A stretch of DNA of 36,835 nucleotides from a virus, in the IMG/VR virus record IMGVR_UViG_3300037584_001599, positions 1-36,835 of that record, one strand, 5' to 3'. The notes beneath the pieces were generated by a model. That model was not told the origin of the DNA, did not search any database, and was given only the letters and a program-made list of their open reading frames with translations. Positions 17,798 to 30,713 of the stretch are shown here, piece by piece. Position 1 is the stretch's first letter, and every line of letters begins with the position of its first letter. Made by a program: the position numbers and the translations under genes.

Positions 17798-18601
17798 ATG
17801 GACACATTTGGTAGCAATTTTAGCGATAACGTTGACATGACAGGAATTGGGTTAAACTATGACGCAAATAATTTTGCTGGTAATGTTAGCCAAGGACAAA
17901 CAGGTTCAGGCGTTGCTAGCGCTGCAATAGGCGGTGCGGCACAAGTTGCTACTGCTGCTCTTACTGCAGCAAATCCCGCTGCAATGGCAGCAAAAGCTGT
18001 AGGTGGCGTTGTAAAAGCTGTTGGTAGTTTATTTGGTGGTGGTAAAAGAAGACGTGAGCAAAGACAAGCTAGACAAGAATTAGCAAGAAGAAAGGCTGAT
18101 TTTGAATCAACAGACACATCTAATCCTTATAAAAATCTTACAAATACATACGAAAATTTAACAGTTAATACACAAGCAGCCGATTTTGCTGCTCAACAAT
18201 CTTCACAGGGAGCTGCGAATATAATGGGTAATTTAGCTGCTGCCGCGGGTGGTGGTGGAATTGCTGCTTTAGCACAATCATTAGCTAATTCGCAAGCGCA
18301 AGCTGCTCAACAAGCATCTGCAAGTATTGCTCAACAAGAACAAAGAAATGCAATGTTAAGTGCACAAGGCGAAGCTTCAAGACAAAAAGCCGTTGCAACA
18401 GGTGAAAGACAAAGCCAAGTAATGGAATACAAAAAACAAAGTACATTATTAGGCATGGCACAACAAAGAAAAGCAGCAGCCGATCAAGCTAGAAAAGATG
18501 CAACAAACGCATTAGTTAGTGGTATTGGCGATATTGCAGGAGGGCTTGCAGGAGGCGGTGGATTTGCAAAGGGCGGCTTAAAAAATATGTTTGGAGGATA
18601 A
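17798..18601 (+). CDS. Internal virion (ejection) protein, Ala/Gln-rich
   Basis: A 267-residue protein made largely of Ala, Gln and Gly. Residues about 38-78 form a small-residue hydrophobic stretch that could be membrane-active, followed by a basic patch ('GGGKRRREQRQARQ'). The Gln/Ala-rich helix at about 130-235 resembles the internal core protein gp14 of T7-like phages, and the C-terminus is again Gly-rich and hydrophobic. Such proteins leave the head first and help form a channel through the envelope. It is followed by two larger candidate ejection proteins. The leader contains AATACGTAAT, also present before 1607. Confidence 0.62.
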   Translation: MDTFGSNFSDNVDMTGIGLNYDANNFAGNVSQGQTGSGVASAAIGGAAQVATAALTAANPAAMAAKAVGGVVKAVGSLFGGGKRRREQRQARQELARRKADFESTDTSNPYKNLTNTYENLTVNTQAADFAAQQSSQGAANIMGNLAAAAGGGGIAALAQSLANSQAQAAQQASASIAQQEQRNAMLSAQGEASRQKAVATGERQSQVMEYKKQSTLLGMAQQRKAAADQARKDATNALVSGIGDIAGGLAGGGGFAKGGLKNMFGG

Positions 18602-18615
18602 TAAAATAAATAATT

Positions 18616-19953
18616 ATGGCATCAGATAAAAATTTGATATTAGGGGCGGCAATGGCTGCGCCAAAATTTAACACTGGGTTTGTAGATATAATTGATAAAG
18701 AGGTTAAAGAATTTACAACTAGAGTAGAAAAAGAAGCTAAAGAAAAGCAAGCTAGAGCTGATGCTATAAGCGCAGATACTGCATCTTTTTTAGAAGGATT
18801 ACCTGCTAACCCCAATATAGAACTTCTTGATAGATCATTAAAGCCAGTTGTGGAATCTTTCCTTGCAAAAACTAGAATGAATCTTGCTGGATTATATAGA
18901 ACAAGAAGGGGTGACACGGTAACATATGCACCCGGAACAGAAGCTTATGATAAAATTACAAGAGAAATTGAGGCTGGAACACGCTCTATAAATAACGTAT
19001 TAAATCAATTAAAAATTCATCAAACAAATACCGCGGATTACATAAATGAAAATACTTTCATATCGGAGCATTGGAAAAAAGAAAATTTAAACATGTTTGC
19101 TGACATGAAAAATATATATTTAGATAAAACTTATGGTAGCACGATAGACGCAAACGGCAATATTACAATAAATGGTAAATATAAAATAAATGATTGGAGC
19201 TCAGGCGAAAATATTAAAAAATTAGATTGGAATGTAACTGATGCTGGTTATTCAGAAGCAATATTACAGCAAATGGATAAAGCAGCAAATGTTAGAGGGC
19301 AAAAAATAATAAAAGGAGATAGTTATGACCAGCTATTTAGCACTAGCTTAAAACAATATTTTACAGGAGCAAGTGGAATAGATAATTTAAAATCAGTTGT
19401 ATTTGATAATCCTAAAATATTAGGATTAAATTTATTACAAGGCGATGATAATTTAGAAGAATTACAAAATTTGGTAAAAAATGGCAATTATACAGAGGCT
19501 ATTGAAAAAGTTGTATCATCTTCTATGAATAGAGTTATAACTCATCAAAATAATTTATATGATAAAGCAAACAGTGATGATTATAGAGGCACTCAAACAG
19601 AAAGAGATAGACAAGCTATATTAGATTATCTAGCTAAAACCGATAGCACTAGGGTAGATATAGTGAGAGATTATAGCAAGTTAACAAAAATCAATCAAAA
19701 CGGTGTATTTGAATCATATATAGGTCTTTCAAATAAATTATCTCAATATGGTATAATTGTTAATCCTATAACAGATCAAAGTCAGAAGAATGTATTACAA
19801 TTAGAACTAATTAATCAAAGAAACGGAGTAAGAAGCTTACTTTCAGGTAATATGACACAAAATCAAATATTAAGCGCTTTAGATGGAGCTTTTGGTGGTT
19901 TTGCTAGAGGTATAGATTATGAGTCGTTGCCATTAGAAATGAGAATAAAATAA
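18616..19953 (+). CDS. Internal virion protein candidate
   Basis: A 445-residue, largely helical, charged protein between the Ala/Gln-rich protein and the giant virion protein. The N-terminal ~65 residues form a likely coiled coil ('EVKEFTTRVEKEAKEKQARA'). The rest alternates helices and short loops without a motif I can name. Gene order (small hydrophobic, medium helical, very large multidomain) parallels the three T7 ejection genes 14, 15 and 16, so I infer a gp15-like role in the ejection apparatus. It could equally be an internal cargo protein. Confidence 0.5.
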   Translation: MASDKNLILGAAMAAPKFNTGFVDIIDKEVKEFTTRVEKEAKEKQARADAISADTASFLEGLPANPNIELLDRSLKPVVESFLAKTRMNLAGLYRTRRGDTVTYAPGTEAYDKITREIEAGTRSINNVLNQLKIHQTNTADYINENTFISEHWKKENLNMFADMKNIYLDKTYGSTIDANGNITINGKYKINDWSSGENIKKLDWNVTDAGYSEAILQQMDKAANVRGQKIIKGDSYDQLFSTSLKQYFTGASGIDNLKSVVFDNPKILGLNLLQGDDNLEELQNLVKNGNYTEAIEKVVSSSMNRVITHQNNLYDKANSDDYRGTQTERDRQAILDYLAKTDSTRVDIVRDYSKLTKINQNGVFESYIGLSNKLSQYGIIVNPITDQSQKNVLQLELINQRNGVRSLLSGNMTQNQILSALDGAFGGFARGIDYESLPLEMRIK

Positions 19954-19963
19954 TATATTAAAC

Positions 19964-22900
19964 ATGTCTGATATTCAAAAATATATAACTGAATCAGGAG
20001 ATATTTATTATCTTTCTGAATTAGAGCGTTTTGCAGAAATGCAAAATGTTGAATTCGATGTTTTCATGCAAGCTATGGAAACAAAAGGTATGAAAAAATA
20101 TGAAGCACCAAAAGGAACTCAACAAGAGAATAGTGAAACACAATCAGGAGGTGTTTCATCTATATATCAAGACTTAGCAGAATCGCCTTTTGTTAGAAAA
20201 GTATTGTCTGGAGTAATACCTGAGCCTGCAAGAGGGGCTTTTGAGTTAGCTGTAGGTGGAGAAACAATTAATGAAACGTTAGGAATAGCTGGCAATTACG
20301 CAATGGTTGTTGGTGGAAATGTAATGCAAGCTAAAGATGATCCTATTGGTGTATTAAGTACATTATATAATGAAGGTTTAAAAAGAGGGGTAGCTAAAGG
20401 CATTGATACATCTTTAGAAATAACATTTGATAATACAAAAGACATAGAAGAGGCAGCAGCAACATCTTTTTTATTAATGAGTGGTCAAATCGGCGATAAT
20501 AAAGAAACAGCGAATAGTTTAGCAAAATCAATAATAGCTGCAAAAGACGCAGCATTTAACACTGGTATTGGTAAATTTGTTGAAGCATTATTACCTGAGC
20601 CAGCTAAGCTTTTAACAACTTCAAGAAAAGAAATAGAAGAAAAAAGAGAACCTTTTAAAAAATATATAACCGAATATGACACCACAATAACTGAGTCTCT
20701 TATAAATGCTAAAAATGGAAAAGAAACAGATTTTGCACAGTTAGGTGCAAGAATATTTTCTGATGCCGTAGGTAGTATGCCTTATACTATGATGTCTTTA
20801 AATCCTTATACGGCTGGTTATATGGGTGTTGGTATTGCAGGTGATAAATTTTTAGAAGAACTTGAAGAAGACCCTGAAAGAGCTCTTTGGCAATTAGGAT
20901 TTAATGCTGGTACAACAGGTATTATAGAAATTGCTGATGCATATTTAACAAGAAGATTTTTAAAATCTGGTGGTTATCTTAGTAGTGGTATGAGTAAAAA
21001 AGCTACTCAAGACGCTGTTAAGCAAATGAATAAAGGTATTAGCGGTAAAATATTAGATATATATAGTATTGCCGGTAAGGAAGGTTTAACAGAAATTGCA
21101 CAAGCTGTTTCAACTAGAATAAATGATAAAGCTTGGTTTGAATATGAAGATATACTAGAAAAAGGTATATATGCTGACTTTGGTATAATGAAAGATGCCT
21201 ATAGTATAATTGACGAAGGTATTATTGGTGCATTTAGTGGTGGTAAAATAACTGCTGTAGCAGCAGCAACACAAACAAAGTCTAAATTAAGAAATAGAGT
21301 TGAACAACTATTGATGCCTTCACATGTAAGAAAACAAAGACAAGACTTAGTTAACGAATATTTAGAAAGAAATAATCTAATAAAAGAAGCTAAAAAAGAT
21401 GGCAATAATAAAAGAGCAGCGGCTTTATTAGGTATAAACAGAAAAGTTTTAGCCAACATAAGAGAAATTAGCAATAGGAATAGACTTGTTTTAAATAATT
21501 TAGAAGGTAATGATTTATTAGAATATGCTAGAAATATAGATTCTATTAATCAATTAAAAGATGGTAAACAAGACAATGCTGTAGATAAAGAAATAGACAA
21601 TCTTAATAAACAAAATTCAGACATATTTGATAAAATAATAAAAGAAAAATATGGTAATAATGTTGATTTTGCAAAAGTTAGTGCAAAACAATTAGGATTA
21701 AAATTAAGAATTGCTAAAACAAATCAGTCCTTTAATAATATTATAAAAAAATTAACAGGTAGAGTTATAAAAGATTCTAATGGTGTAAATGGTGCGTTTA
21801 TTGGTAACGGTGTTATGGTTATTAATGAAAAAATAGCATTAAAGCAAGGCGCTGTAACAGTTGGTAGTCATGAAATATTACACCCTATATTAAACGCTAT
21901 GGTTGGTGATGTTAATGCACAAGAAACTATAGTAAAAGATTTTCAAAAAACAATGACGTCCGCACAAAAAAAATGGACTGATTTAGAAATAAAAAGAAAA
22001 GGTATACAAGAAGGAACTAGAGAATATTATACAGAATATATAAATGTTTTTTCAGAGGGTATTATTAACGATGAAATTAACTTTGATTTAAACTTTAGTG
22101 AACAAATGAAAGAATGGGTTACTAAATTATTTAAGGGCAAAGGATTTAATAATATTGATTTTAGAAGTGGCAGAGGTGTATATAATTTTATGAAAGCATA
22201 TAAACAAAGTGCTGATAAAGGTAAATTAAATCAAGATGTTTTAGGTGCTTTGGATATAGAAGCAATAAAAGAAGTTAATGTAGTTGGCAAAAATATACAA
22301 AAATCTGAAGAAGTACAGAAAATATATGATGAAAAAGGTGTTGATGGGGCCTTTGAAATATTAGAAAAGTACGCTCCTATGGCTAAAAAACTTGCTGCTA
22401 GATTTCAAAATGTTCCAGGATATACTACGTTATCTGACATACTTATTGATGAAATATTAACTGGTAAAAGAGGTGTTTATGATTTAATACAATCATATAA
22501 TCCTAATTCAGGAATACCAATAGCTGCGTATATAAATAAGTTTATAAAATCAAGATCGATAGAAGCTGCCAATAGAATATTAGATACAAAGTTTAAATTA
22601 GATATAACTGAGCTTACAGGTGTAACAGATACGCAAACACAAGAGGAAATTGACGAATCACAAACTAAAGAAGAAGCTCAAAGAAATAGTTTAAGAATAT
22701 CTTTAAGCTTAACTAATGACGTTATTAATAAAGTTAAAGATGCTGTTATAAAAACATTTGGAACTAAATTACCAGATGTTACTTCTAAAAAGTTTAAAAA
22801 AGCATTAACAGATAATTATAAAACATTTTTAAAACCTACTATAGCTAAAATGTTAGGTAGACAAGAATCATATAAAGATTTTCTTAATGAAAATTTTAAA

Positions 22901-25900
22901 TTAATATATGATATACTACCCCAATCCACAATAAACAAAAGGTTTAAAGATTTTGCAGAACCAATAATTGATGAAAACGGTAAGCAATTAAGAGAAAGAA
23001 CCCCTGAGGGAAATAAAATATTTAAGAAAAAACAAATAACAAGAAAAGAATTTGTAGATTATTTTATAGGTGAAACTGTAGGAAGATCTACACAAGGGAC
23101 TAGAAAAACAGCCTTAGCTGAAGCATTGGCAAATGAAATTGCATTTGATGCTACATTAGATGTATTAAGAAGTCCTGAAATATTTGAAAAAGTAAAACAA
23201 ATAGGTGCTGCGCAAGAAATTGATATTGCTGATAATTATTTGGCACAAGTTGCACAAAAAATAAATAGAGGTGTAGATTTTCAATTTAGCAAAGAGGCTA
23301 CTAATGCAGCTGATTTATATGCAATAAGAGACGCGATAATGAATGAAGTATTAGATGAAAAATTTCCTAATATATATAATGAAATAATTAGTGCGGCAAA
23401 AGGATTAGGCTTGAGTATTCCATATGCTTTTAAAGGTGTAACATTTGAAACATATGTAACAAATATTCAAAATAATAGAAAAAGCTTAAAATTAAAAGCT
23501 ATTGGTGACGGTTTAATGGGACCGACAGGCACTGATATTGTTTTTGAATTAACAAAAGATAACAATACAAAAACTTCTGTACCAACTGAAATTAAATATA
23601 ATGTAAAAGACCAATTTGGCAGCGCTACTTTTAAAACAAATAAAGAAGGTAGTTTAGAAACAACTAATCCTTTAATGGAGGACATGATACCGTTTTTAGC
23701 TGAAAAAATGGAAATATACGAAGAACTACATAGAAGAGCAGAAGAAATACAAGGAGAAAAAATACCATTTCGTTTTCCTCAAACTGGTTATCTTAAAAGT
23801 ACTTGGGATAAATTAAAATACGAATTTATAGCAAAAGAAAGAAATATACAGATTATTTTTGACAATGCTAATTTAATTGAAAAATATTACAACGACAAAG
23901 GTGTATATGCAATATATATTGGAAATAAAGGTCTATTTTATTTAGGAAAAAATAAAAACAATTTAAACGCTAAAAGACTGGAATCTAAAATGAAAACGTA
24001 TATGTCTTTAAGATCTAGCGGTACAAATTCAAATGGTTTTGTAACCTTAACATTAAGAGGCTTTAATGCGTTAGTAAATGGAAAAAAATTAACTAAAGAT
24101 GTATTAGTTTCAGAAGATAATTTTGAAGATCATTATTTTCAATTTAGTAAAGAAACAGGTAATCTTGATTTAGAATTTAATGAAATACTAGAGGATAAGT
24201 TTGATATTGATTCTAAAAAAAGATATTCACGTATAGAGGCTAGAAGAGTAGGTAAGGGCAAAGGCGGACCTAAAATTATATTGCCTTATGAAGCTGAAGA
24301 TTTCAAAGGTTTAATGTATAATTTATTACCAAAAGGAAAAAAAGGTAATAAAGCTATGGCTTGGATAGAACAAAATTTATTCAACCCTTTCAATTCTGGT
24401 ATAGAAAATATCAATAAAGATAGAATGCAATTGATGAATAGATTTAAGGAATTAAAAAAAGAAATTAAATCTGTTCCTGCAAAAATATCTAAAAATATAC
24501 CTAGTGGTAATGAAACATATGAAACAGCTATAAGAGTTTATATATGGGACACTCAAGGTATGGACATACCTGGATTAACCAATTCTGAAAGAATAGAAAT
24601 GGTTAATTTAGTTAAAAATGATAAAGATTTATTAAAATTTGCTAATGAATTAATAGCATTAAATGGAGATGTTAAGTATATAAAACCAGGTGCATCCTGG
24701 GACGCGGGAACTATTACAACTGATTTAATGCAAAATTTAAATGAAGGAATAAGAGCTAAGCATTTACAAAAATGGCAGGATAATGTTGATGAAATATTTA
24801 GCGAAGAAAATTTTAATAAAATTGAAGCGGCTAAAGGTCCTGAATATGTTGATGTATTAAAAAGAACATTAGCAAGAATGAAATCTGGTAGAAATAGATT
24901 TAATTCAGGAAGTAAAGCTATAGATAATTTATTAGATTGGTTAAATAATTCTGTCGGTGTTATTATGTTTTTAAATACTAGATCAGCAGTACTACAAACC
25001 ATATCTACTGTAAATTACATAAATTGGTCAGATAATAATCCTTTAAAAGCTGGTGTGGCATATGCTAATCAACCACAATATTGGAAAGATTTTACATACC
25101 TTTGGAATTCTGATTATTTAAAAGAAAGACGGGGTGGCTTACAAATAAATGTATCTGAATCAGAAATAGCAGATATGGCTAAAGAAAAAGGTGTAAAAGG
25201 GGCTATAAGTTATTTATTAAATAAAGGTTTTGTTTTAACAAGAATGGCAGATAGTTGGGCTATTGCAAATGGAGGAGCAACTTTTTATAGAAACAGAATT
25301 AGTTCTTATAAAAAACAAGGTTTATCCGAAAAAGAAGCCGAAGAAAAAGCGTTTTTAGACTTTAGAGAGTTAACTGAAGAAAGTCAACAATCATCTAGAC
25401 CCGATAAAATATCAGAACAACAAGCCGGTGGTGCTGGGCGTGTAATATTGGCTTTTGCTAATACCCCAATGCAGTACACTAGATTAATGAAAAGAGCTTC
25501 TCAGGATTTATTAGCAGGTAGAGGTGACTGGAAAACTAATCTTTCTAAATTAACATATTATGGATTTATTCAAAACTTTATGTTTAATGCAATGCAACAA
25601 GCTTTATTTGTATTAGGATTTAGTGATGAGGAAGATGAAAAAACACAATTAAAATATACAAGTACTATTAATGGAATGTTAGATTCTGTATTAAGAGGAG
25701 CTGGTTATTATGGAGCTGGAGTAACAGTTATTAAAAACTATATTGCAGATTTAGTTAGAAGAAAAGAATTACCTCGGCCTAATTATAGAGATGCGGCGTG
25801 GAAACTATTAGATATTTCTCCACCATTAGACGCTAAAATTGATAAAATTTATCAAGCAGGTAAAATAGTTGATTACGAAATGGACAATATAAAATCACAA

Positions 25901-26161
25901 CCATTTAATTTACAAAATCCAGCTGCAGAAGTTATAGGTAAAACAACAGCGGCATTAACTAATGTTCCGCTTGATAGAGCATTAAGATTATATAATAATA
26001 CAAGATATGCACTAGTAAGTGATGCAGAATATTGGCAAAAAGTAGCTCTTGCATTAGGTTGGACAAAATGGCAACTTGGTATTGAAGATACTGATACAAT
26101 AAAAACAATTAGACCAAGAAAGAAAAGAACAAAAACAATTAAACAAAAAACTATACAATAA
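19964..26161 (+). CDS. Giant multidomain internal virion protein
   Basis: At 2065 residues this is the longest gene in the window. Segments in order: a low-complexity N-terminus with hydrophobic patches (1-450); a metallopeptidase-like part with HEILH at 636-640 and a possible third ligand in 'NVFSEGII' about 60 residues later; a helical part at about 790-880 that reads like sigma-70 region 2 ('LEKYAPMAKKLAARFQNVPG', then 'YNPNSGIPIAAYINKFIKSR'); a PD-(D/E)XK-like pattern, D1191 then 'PTEIK' (E1209, K1211); and a C-terminal region with 'WLNNSVGVIMFLNTRSAV' seen in large marine-phage virion proteins. The hexapeptide FQFSKE occurs at 1106 and 1392, between segments. I infer an ejected protein comparable to T7 gp16 or crAss-like cargo. 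Domain calls are by eye. Confidence 0.65.
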   Translation: MSDIQKYITESGDIYYLSELERFAEMQNVEFDVFMQAMETKGMKKYEAPKGTQQENSETQSGGVSSIYQDLAESPFVRKVLSGVIPEPARGAFELAVGGETINETLGIAGNYAMVVGGNVMQAKDDPIGVLSTLYNEGLKRGVAKGIDTSLEITFDNTKDIEEAAATSFLLMSGQIGDNKETANSLAKSIIAAKDAAFNTGIGKFVEALLPEPAKLLTTSRKEIEEKREPFKKYITEYDTTITESLINAKNGKETDFAQLGARIFSDAVGSMPYTMMSLNPYTAGYMGVGIAGDKFLEELEEDPERALWQLGFNAGTTGIIEIADAYLTRRFLKSGGYLSSGMSKKATQDAVKQMNKGISGKILDIYSIAGKEGLTEIAQAVSTRINDKAWFEYEDILEKGIYADFGIMKDAYSIIDEGIIGAFSGGKITAVAAATQTKSKLRNRVEQLLMPSHVRKQRQDLVNEYLERNNLIKEAKKDGNNKRAAALLGINRKVLANIREISNRNRLVLNNLEGNDLLEYARNIDSINQLKDGKQDNAVDKEIDNLNKQNSDIFDKIIKEKYGNNVDFAKVSAKQLGLKLRIAKTNQSFNNIIKKLTGRVIKDSNGVNGAFIGNGVMVINEKIALKQGAVTVGSHEILHPILNAMVGDVNAQETIVKDFQKTMTSAQKKWTDLEIKRKGIQEGTREYYTEYINVFSEGIINDEINFDLNFSEQMKEWVTKLFKGKGFNNIDFRSGRGVYNFMKAYKQSADKGKLNQDVLGALDIEAIKEVNVVGKNIQKSEEVQKIYDEKGVDGAFEILEKYAPMAKKLAARFQNVPGYTTLSDILIDEILTGKRGVYDLIQSYNPNSGIPIAAYINKFIKSRSIEAANRILDTKFKLDITELTGVTDTQTQEEIDESQTKEEAQRNSLRISLSLTNDVINKVKDAVIKTFGTKLPDVTSKKFKKALTDNYKTFLKPTIAKMLGRQESYKDFLNENFKLIYDILPQSTINKRFKDFAEPIIDENGKQLRERTPEGNKIFKKKQITRKEFVDYFIGETVGRSTQGTRKTALAEALANEIAFDATLDVLRSPEIFEKVKQIGAAQEIDIADNYLAQVAQKINRGVDFQFSKEATNAADLYAIRDAIMNEVLDEKFPNIYNEIISAAKGLGLSIPYAFKGVTFETYVTNIQNNRKSLKLKAIGDGLMGPTGTDIVFELTKDNNTKTSVPTEIKYNVKDQFGSATFKTNKEGSLETTNPLMEDMIPFLAEKMEIYEELHRRAEEIQGEKIPFRFPQTGYLKSTWDKLKYEFIAKERNIQIIFDNANLIEKYYNDKGVYAIYIGNKGLFYLGKNKNNLNAKRLESKMKTYMSLRSSGTNSNGFVTLTLRGFNALVNGKKLTKDVLVSEDNFEDHYFQFSKETGNLDLEFNEILEDKFDIDSKKRYSRIEARRVGKGKGGPKIILPYEAEDFKGLMYNLLPKGKKGNKAMAWIEQNLFNPFNSGIENINKDRMQLMNRFKELKKEIKSVPAKISKNIPSGNETYETAIRVYIWDTQGMDIPGLTNSERIEMVNLVKNDKDLLKFANELIALNGDVKYIKPGASWDAGTITTDLMQNLNEGIRAKHLQKWQDNVDEIFSEENFNKIEAAKGPEYVDVLKRTLARMKSGRNRFNSGSKAIDNLLDWLNNSVGVIMFLNTRSAVLQTISTVNYINWSDNNPLKAGVAYANQPQYWKDFTYLWNSDYLKERRGGLQINVSESEIADMAKEKGVKGAISYLLNKGFVLTRMADSWAIANGGATFYRNRISSYKKQGLSEKEAEEKAFLDFRELTEESQQSSRPDKISEQQAGGAGRVILAFANTPMQYTRLMKRASQDLLAGRGDWKTNLSKLTYYGFIQNFMFNAMQQALFVLGFSDEEDEKTQLKYTSTINGMLDSVLRGAGYYGAGVTVIKNYIADLVRRKELPRPNYRDAAWKLLDISPPLDAKIDKIYQAGKIVDYEMDNIKSQPFNLQNPAAEVIGKTTAALTNVPLDRALRLYNNTRYALVSDAEYWQKVALALGWTKWQLGIEDTDTIKTIRPRKKRTKTIKQKTIQ

Positions 26162-28533: not shown

Positions 28534-28932
28534 ATGAAATACTTAAATATAATTTTACTATTAATTACATTTAATACTTTTGGACAAGAGTTTATTACTG
28601 ATAATAATTTTGATAGTAAAATAAATGAAAAGCAAGCGTTTGGTGATAATCAAACATTGCCAGTAATAGTTGAATTTTATGCGTCATTTAACGATGCTAA
28701 TAAATTTGATGATTGGAGTAAATTAGAAAATGTTATATATTATAGGGCGGATATAGCTAATTGCCCAACAGCAAAGAAAAAATACAAAGTGCGAATGGCA
28801 CCAACATTAATTATCTTTAAAGAAGGTATAAAAGAAATAGTATTTAAAGCAGGATTAGATTTAATGTTGCCTGCGGATTTAAATGAAATACAAGAATCTA
28901 TTAACGAAGTTAACCAAGCTTCACAATTTTAA
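28534..28932 (+). CDS. Secreted thioredoxin-fold protein without CXXC
   Basis: A 132-residue protein with a signal peptide (MKYLNIILLLITFNTFGQ). The mature part follows the thioredoxin order: strand 'LPVIVEFYAS' (42-51), then where the active-site CGPC should be there is 'FNDANKF', then 'VIYYRADIANCPTAKKKYKV' and the cis-Pro loop 'RMAPTLIIFKEG' (P90), ending in a helix. The only Cys is C77. So the fold seems intact but the redox centre is lost. It may act as a periplasmic binding or chaperone-like protein, or as an inhibitor that mimics a host thioredoxin. It lies one base after the coiled-coil gene, in the envelope/lysis cassette. Confidence 0.65.
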   Translation: MKYLNIILLLITFNTFGQEFITDNNFDSKINEKQAFGDNQTLPVIVEFYASFNDANKFDDWSKLENVIYYRADIANCPTAKKKYKVRMAPTLIIFKEGIKEIVFKAGLDLMLPADLNEIQESINEVNQASQF

Positions 28933-29893: not shown

Positions 29894-30348
29894 TGATAAG
29901 TGATCATATAAGCTATAAAGAAGGTGTGTATAGCATTACTGCTGATAGATTAGGTTTGGAAAATAAACCTAATGAGGAACAATTATCTAATATGAAAACA
30001 ATAGCAGAAGAGGTTTTTGAACCATTAAGAAAATGGGTAAATGGACCTATAAAAATTAATTCTTTTTTTCGTTCTCCAGAATTAAATAAAGCTATCGGAG
30101 GATCTACTAAATCGCAACATTGTCACGGGCAAGCAATAGACATTGACGATACTTTTGGCAAAAGGAGTAATGCAGAAATGTTTACTTATGTAAAAGAGAT
30201 GTTAGATTTTGATCAAATGATATGGGAATTTGGAGATGATAAAAACCCTAATTGGGTTCATATTAGTTATGTATCAAAAGATGAAAATAGAAATAGATGT
30301 TTGAAAGCCTATAAAGAAGGTGGAAAAACTAAATACATGGTAATATAA
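29893..30348 (+). CDS. Endolysin: M15-type peptidoglycan peptidase
   Basis: This 151-residue protein carries the M15 zinc-peptidase signature: 'SQHCHGQAID' (H76 and D83 as ligands, in the S-x-H-x-x-G-x-A-x-D pattern), 'IWEFGD' with E112 as likely catalytic acid, and 'WVHIS' (H123, third ligand). 'INSFFRSPELN' upstream is also typical. Enzymes of this kind (D-Ala-D-Ala carboxypeptidase-like, L-Ala-D-Glu peptidase) cut stem peptides of the cell wall. There is no signal peptide, so release depends on a holin, encoded directly upstream. The gene is joined by TAATG overlaps to both neighbours. Confidence 0.88.
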   Translation: MISDHISYKEGVYSITADRLGLENKPNEEQLSNMKTIAEEVFEPLRKWVNGPIKINSFFRSPELNKAIGGSTKSQHCHGQAIDIDDTFGKRSNAEMFTYVKEMLDFDQMIWEFGDDKNPNWVHISYVSKDENRNRCLKAYKEGGKTKYMVI

Positions 30349-30713
30349 TGTACGAATATAGAATAAAAATAGACCGTTGGGTTGATGGTGATACAGTAGA
30401 TGTTGATATAGATTTAGGGTTTGATGTCGTATTGAAAAAACAACGTGTAAGATTACATGGAATAAATGCACCTGAATCTAGGACTAGAAATTTAGAAGAA
30501 AAAGAAAAAGGATTAGCGGCGAAAGAATATTGCAAAAACTTTTGTAAAGAAGGAGAAGCCGCTATTCTTAAAACAAAAACCTATGACGCCAGCGGTAAGT
30601 ATGGTAGAATATTAGGTGAAATATGGTCAGCAGGAGAATATGCTGATAAATCATTAAACGAATACTTAATTGAAAAAGGACACGCTACTGAATATTTTGG
30701 CGGTAAAAGATAA
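30348..30713 (+). CDS. Thermonuclease-like (SNase) nuclease
   Basis: A 121-residue staphylococcal-nuclease fold protein. The residues that define the active site are present: 'VDGDTVDVDI' for calcium (D13, D15), R35 and E43 in 'RVRLHGINAPE', and R87 in 'KYGRILGEIW'. The pattern thus appears complete and the enzyme active. It lacks a signal peptide, so it should act inside the cell, perhaps in host DNA breakdown or nucleotide recycling. Its start overlaps the endolysin stop (TAATG), an unusual pairing of lysis and nucleic-acid functions. Confidence 0.87.
   Translation: MYEYRIKIDRWVDGDTVDVDIDLGFDVVLKKQRVRLHGINAPESRTRNLEEKEKGLAAKEYCKNFCKEGEAAILKTKTYDASGKYGRILGEIWSAGEYADKSLNEYLIEKGHATEYFGGKR

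Follow-up and report, generated by a model that had tools for sequence, protein, structure and literature searches.

Gene Order and the Giant Last Gene

The window, by which we mean the whole 36,835-nt stretch of viral DNA analysed here, carried the terminase large subunit, the portal, a capsid-type structural protein, and large structural proteins in that order, followed by a trio of genes for proteins of 267, 445, and 2,065 aa. The order was the same as in Flavobacterium phage elemo (gp29 to gp18) and Cellulophaga phage phi38:1 (gp90 to gp101). The small member of the trio (17798–18601, + strand) was Ala/Gly-rich and gp14-like by position and composition, standing where elemo has gp20 and phi38:1 has gp99. 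The middle member (18616–19953, + strand) corresponded in position to elemo gp19 and phi38:1 gp100. The last and largest member (19964–26161, + strand), at the end of the morphogenesis (capsid) operon, encoded the giant multidomain protein P0001. It took the place of elemo gp18 and phi38:1 gp101, giant last genes annotated as structural, and was also syntenic with the giant ‘structural protein’ gene of Cellulophaga phage phi46:3.

This synteny supports the view that P0001 would be a virion component, standing where podoviruses have their large ejection proteins, and makes it a candidate ejection (polyvalent) protein. From the synteny and from what is generally seen with such proteins in podoviruses, P0001 is probably injected into the host. 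The terminase relatives belonged to phages of Flavobacteriia, so a flavobacterial host is likely. The Bacteroidetes-type -33/-7 promoter pattern had 3 matches in the window vs. 2.9 expected, a number that carries no signal. By eye, the − strand between 31038 and 36761 encoded the large and small subunits of ribonucleotide reductase, a MazG-like protein, and thymidylate synthase. A 121-aa protein (30348–30713) had the look of a staphylococcal-nuclease-type domain, and a 132-aa secreted thioredoxin-like protein (28534–28932) had no obvious CxxC, both again judged by eye.

Segments of the Giant Protein

P0001 was very large, multidomain, and mosaic, its segments differing in their sets of relatives (17, 102, 101, 36, 6, 9, 144, and 139). 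All features below lie on the + strand. The HEILH (HExxH) motif at residues 636–640 (21869–21883) marked a zincin-like metallopeptidase segment, and a motif scan found HExxH in 127 of 139 giant proteins. Beyond the motif, the domain matched weakly to M78/DUF5700 peptidases in Pfam with a consensus query. A sigma-70 domain 2-like module spanning regions 1.2–2.4 followed at residues 776–877 (22289–22594), as placed by profile–profile comparison, AlphaFold, and structural neighbours. Its core was best defined by profile and model at residues 783–875 (22310–22588). Column counts showed a conserved cap, ‘F..D[VI]TE’ (F877, D880, T882, E883; 22580–22615), where a disordered linker begins. The D[VI]TE after the module (22601–22615) was present in 80 of 85 carriers, and persisted in some remote versions with diverged helices, e.g., at loci L006 and L009.

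Past the linker, residues 905–1100 (22676–23263) formed a helical domain in the model, with 36 relatives and without a family match; at this position other carriers had a diverged or a different domain. Residues 1105–1300 (23276–23863), with 6 relatives only, held a possible PD-(D/E)XK nuclease-like segment, for which the consensus match to PDDEXK_13 was very weak (E 0.056). The C-terminal region, residues 1400–2065 (24161–26158), was kept in nearly all giants (139–144 relatives). The HAD-phosphatase-like DFDDT motif occurred in 94 of 139 giant relatives, e.g., in the giant ORF of L001 (1149–10058), and P0001 was without it. Further weak matches in P0001 were to HTH_8 (residues 478–496) and phrog_7151 RpbA.

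Relatives and Modularity of the Domain

A scan with the window sequence alone gave no relatives for the domain and one for the whole protein. With the C-terminal region as query, 80 virus contigs were recovered, about a quarter of them with a clear homologue of residues 771–1000. A profile of these residues found 80 more loci and brought the domain matches to 103, of which 101 were strong. The carriers were uncultivated marine virus contigs; their number, about 100, is an upper size, as some contigs were fetched twice, and the domain set contained 84 distinct sequences (48 left at 85% identity). An iterated search returned 111 of 138 giants as carriers at a lenient threshold and was not relied on. 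The module was undetectable in the cultured or named relatives Gundel, Panino, elemo, phi38:1, phi46:3, and MW202828. No relative turned up in the genome contigs, which leaves the family without a known prophage carrier.

The zincin-like segment had 102 relatives and the sigma module 101. Between the window and L089, the sigma module was 70% identical, compared with 29% for the zincin segment and 51–55% for the C-terminal region. By these comparisons, the module behaves as a unit that is swapped and is under its own selection.

Sequence Evidence for Sigma Homology

Single-sequence searches of Pfam, PHROG, and PDB with P0001 gave no sigma matches. The Pfam model Sigma70_r2 (PF04542) matched neither single sequences, nor 19 members of the family, nor the consensus; it was silent across the whole 36.8-kb window, which also indicated no separate sigma factor gene there. 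Profiles gave a different picture. When the 44-sequence profile was run against 177,635 PDB sequences, sigma factors ranked first and second and several RpoS chains also appeared, all matched at region 2.2–2.3 in the same register, each with a weak E-value (0.15–1.4). The top PHROG match of the family consensus was phrog_1025 ‘RNA polymerase sigma factor’ (E 0.0047), which was matched by 7 of the 19 members. A PDB match of the 19-sequence profile to Piwi AF1318 (E 0.0036) was gone with the broader 44-sequence profile and was put down to chance.

In profile–profile comparison, the module ranked first among 310 control windows that came from the same protein set, both against housekeeping sigma (P 0.0037) and against a combined sigma profile that included phage sigma factors (P 2.3e-5). 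With the combined profile, the next-ranked control windows were also domain-bearing. Scores for the phage’s own sigma and for host sigma as the source of the module were similar. The hhalign alignment was gapless from D829 to S863. It placed D-E-I-x-T-G-x-R-G over D403-L-I-Q-E-G-N-I-G411 and Y-x-P-x-S-G-x-x-L-A-A-Y over F419-E-Y-R-R-G-Y-K-F-S-T-Y430, in what we take to be the residue numbering of E. coli sigma70.

The sequence-only reading had proposed a sigma region 2-like segment at 22330–22620, close to the domain delimited here (about 22289–22594). Both peptides quoted for it lie in frame in P0001, LEKYAPMAKKLAARFQNVPG at residues 800–819 (22361–22420) and SYNPNSGIPIAAYINKFIKS at residues 844–863 (22493–22552). 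The segment goes beyond chance likeness: it was kept in about 100 contig proteins, ranked best among the 310 control windows, and was predicted to have a sigma-2 fold. Profile comparison, as proposed there, gave sigma factor similarity in register, and structural superposition on sigma region 2 gave sigma-2 topology with sigma factors as neighbours. This was the opposite of the outcome named in advance as speaking against the idea, i.e., no sigma profile match and another topology.

Predicted Fold

The AlphaFold2 model built with 44 relatives had a pLDDT of about 94–98 over most of the core and a pTM of 0.78. Four helices were predicted. The first (residues 776–812, 22289–22399) corresponded to regions 1.2/2.1, and in VIA-align it was paired with sigma70 from residue 110 on. 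The second (residues 820–833, 22421–22462) formed the first part of region 2.2 in the hhalign register, and the third (residues 838–844, 22475–22495) was a short helix representing the second part of region 2.2. A Y845-x-P loop led into the long fourth helix (residues 853–872) for regions 2.3/2.4; model, hhalign, and columns agreed on this stretch, YxPxSGVPLAAYINKFxxxRAIEAxNRVL (22496–22579).

In Foldseek, the first-ranked PDB structure was the N-terminal domain of SigE (8b3z; probability 0.96, E 0.63), and E-values were weak overall (0.6–4). In VIA-align, all 50 of the PDB neighbours listed were sigma factors, with Z up to 8.7, where Z 7–9 is middling for helical domains and the tool itself cautions that values under 13 may carry no meaning for such folds. 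Superposition on E. coli sigma70 (6ca0) gave an rmsd of 2.7 over 90 residues. The neighbours listed for a longer 336-residue model were likewise all sigma factors. In the viral structure library, the top match was a giant uncharacterised protein from an uncultured virus; the named matches below it were mostly phage sigma factors. This giant protein (BFVD A0A218ML07) had a similar module in its model (TMq 0.75, 23% identity).

Z and E values taken alone were modest; the assignment to sigma domain 2 follows from neighbours that are uniformly sigma factors and that agree with the register found independently by sequence. On homology and predicted fold together, residues ~776–877 of P0001 very probably represent a divergent sigma-70 domain 2.

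Residues Kept and Replaced

Residue counts refer to the columns of the 44 family sequences. The motif D829-E-I-x-T-G-x-R-G837 (22448–22474), gapless against sigma70 D403–G411, was near-invariant in the main family, with D, E, I, T, G, and G invariant. The equivalents of D403 (44 of 44), G408, and G411 were invariant, and that of Y430 was Y in 41 sequences and F in 3. The β′-contact residues of sigma70 region 2.2, which we take to be D403, Q406, E407, N409, and M413, were not kept as a set. E407 was replaced by T in all 44 sequences and Q406 by E or L; the N409 position was variable, mostly K, and the M413 position hydrophobic. At I410, R was found in 42 of 44. The promoter-melting aromatics of region 2.3, presumably Y430, W433, and W434, were not kept as a set either, and Y430 alone was retained. 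W433 was replaced by K in 40 of 44 and W434 by F, Y, or L, giving K859 and F860 in the window protein.

Several replaced contact positions carried different, equally invariant residues, and K859, R864, and R871 on the basic 2.3/2.4 face were near-invariant in the family. These column counts point to constraint on both faces of the module, though not through the canonical sigma contacts. The D-x-x-x-T-G-x-R-G motif was lost from remoter giants, which seemed to retain a similar helical frame. Loss of the 2.2 motif there counts against a single conserved polymerase contact. Region 4 was not recognised in family searches with the giant protein and the consensus. With Q406, E407, N409, W433, and W434 replaced and no region 4 found, the segment is a sigma-2-like module and not a complete sigma factor. 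Judged by its residues, it is homologous to sigma domain 2, and the name ‘sigma factor’ is unwarranted.

Sigma Factors and Polymerases in Related Records

The sigma region 2 model matched in 26 of 28 related records, 16 of them above the Pfam cut-off. These loci (L251–L277, records G001–G026) formed one family of ~250 aa, a few of them cut short, with starts of MKKYN or similar. The proteins had a region-2 segment and, by eye, a region-4-like C-terminus. They were without the WW pair of region 2.3 and had LKSFLSKRIKGAIRR there instead. One record, G012, had two separate sigma factors.

A search for T7-like RNA polymerase gave no match in the 28 related records, and its controls were equally silent. 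P0001 had neither a DxDGD nor a DxDxD polymerase motif, and DxDGD in the giants (6 of 139) was scattered and unconvincing. Since the relatives had a sigma factor of their own and no T7-like polymerase was seen in a search with a silent control, these phages probably rely on the host RNA polymerase together with their own sigma factor.

Proposed Role and Alternatives

We propose that the giant protein would enter the host cell together with the phage DNA. The zincin-like protease segment would perhaps free the sigma-2 module, which would dock on host RNA polymerase via its region-2.2 face. Once docked, the module would hold the polymerase at the incoming genome and/or keep host sigma off. It would act in the minutes before the phage’s own full sigma factor, encoded elsewhere in related genomes, is made. 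Promoter opening by the module alone is not expected, because it has no recognisable region 4 and no W433/W434 pair. A swappable sigma-2 module in an injected virion protein, docking on host RNA polymerase as homology and conservation suggest, has in our judgement a little less than an even chance of being correct as a whole. More tentative is the extension to a two-step sigma takeover, in which the injected domain would capture host RNA polymerase at genome entry and hand it on to the phage sigma in widespread marine, probably flavobacterial, podoviruses.

The strongest rival is a retired sigma factor, i.e., a module that now serves the ejection apparatus as a helical part, structural or DNA-binding, and makes no polymerase contact. 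The altered polymerase and promoter contacts would fit such a part, as would its location, flanked by other domains in a long protein of the ejection type, and the remote versions that kept a similar frame after losing the region-2.2 motif. However, within the main family conservation is among the highest in the region-2.2 turn and the 2.3/2.4 helix, beyond the needs of a pure spacer, and swapping as a unit, at 70% identity while the neighbours diverge, suggests a specific partner. We regard this alternative as rather unlikely. The sequence-only reading had itself offered a helix bundle that was once a sigma factor; profile and fold agree with that ancestry, and the structural role is still a live rival. 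Its other interpretation, a virion-delivered sigma-like domain, gained the region 2 homology and fold, and the virion protein and its delivery are suggested by synteny only. The redirection of host RNA polymerase that it suggested is plausible: the D403, G408, G411, and Y430 equivalents are retained, but other positions for polymerase contact and promoter melting are replaced.

A second alternative keeps the polymerase as target and drops recruitment to phage DNA. As a decoy or inhibitor, the injected module would occupy the β′ clamp helices, block host sigma, and so switch off transcription of the host. With domain 4 and the melting aromatics missing, domain 2 would bind and not initiate, and a separate phage sigma factor could take over afterwards; the non-canonical β′-facing residues speak against it, and we consider it improbable. 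Convergence, i.e., chance sequence similarity of a common small helical bundle, could appeal to the weak individual E-values and to Z values in the range that may be meaningless for helical folds, but it has very little left in its favour: profile, fold, and register agree independently, the PDB neighbours listed were all sigma factors and the named viral ones mostly so, not assorted bundles, the D-x4-G-x2-G match was gapless and joined by the Y-x-P-x-x-G-x5-Y loop, and the profile ranked top of 310 controls. Equally hard to maintain is a sigma partner for a phage RNA polymerase carried by P0001 itself or by the virion. P23-45 and N4 offer the model, with such polymerases in giant ejected proteins (PMC10770324, PMC12633501); against it stand the absence of DxDGD from P0001, unconvincing instances in 6 of 139 giants, and a T7-like polymerase in 0 of 28 relatives with the control silent.

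Relation to Known Systems

The docking module that we favour resembles sigma-70 domain 2 proteins (PF04542; SigE 8b3z, E. coli sigma70 6ca0, RpoS) in fold, helix order, the gapless 2.2–2.3 register, and the D403, G408, G411, and Y430 equivalents. It differs in being fused inside a giant virion-type protein, in having no region 4 found, and in lying below Pfam detection. Stand-alone sigma factors of phages, the ~250-aa one among them, share the region 2 ancestry, but they are separate proteins with a region-4-like C-terminus by eye.

For polyvalent proteins, processing by zincin-like peptidases has been suggested, and domains for jump-starting transcription have been foreseen among them (Iyer et al. 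2017, PMC5512222). P0001 is similar to them in being very large, multidomain, and mosaic, with a zincin-like motif and probable injection. A sigma domain would extend their range of domain types, and the word ‘sigma’ is absent from the main text of that paper (PMC5512222). The nearest functional precedent is the virion RNA polymerase fused to a giant ejected protein, as in the vRNAP of N4/Schitoviridae (PMC12633501) and in Thermus phage P23-45, whose polymerase is fused to the tape measure and accompanied by a metallopeptidase (PMC10770324). These systems likewise place transcription machinery in a giant virion protein; here it is a specificity-factor domain, which would act on host RNA polymerase. 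T4 Alt and the polyvalent ART/GNAT domains (PMC7824862, PMC5512222) are alike in virion-delivered control of host RNA polymerase at the start of infection, but they are enzymes that modify the polymerase, whereas the module here would be a docking domain. In the literature covered, mostly outside subscription journals and preprints, no description of a sigma domain in a virion protein was found.

If the proposal is true, a sigma domain in an ejected protein would give direct access to host RNA polymerase without an enzymatic step, and a transcription-specificity domain would join the list of polyvalent-protein domains. To our knowledge, how phages without a virion polymerase capture host RNA polymerase early is understood for few systems, and most of these use covalent modifiers, T4 Alt being one. 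The module of ~100 residues is experimentally tractable, and about a hundred contigs of uncultivated marine viruses carry it. Should it no longer bind polymerase, it would still plainly exemplify the domestication of a sigma factor into a component of the virion. With such a domain, whose proposed function is plausible, these phages may seize the host transcription machinery at the onset of infection.
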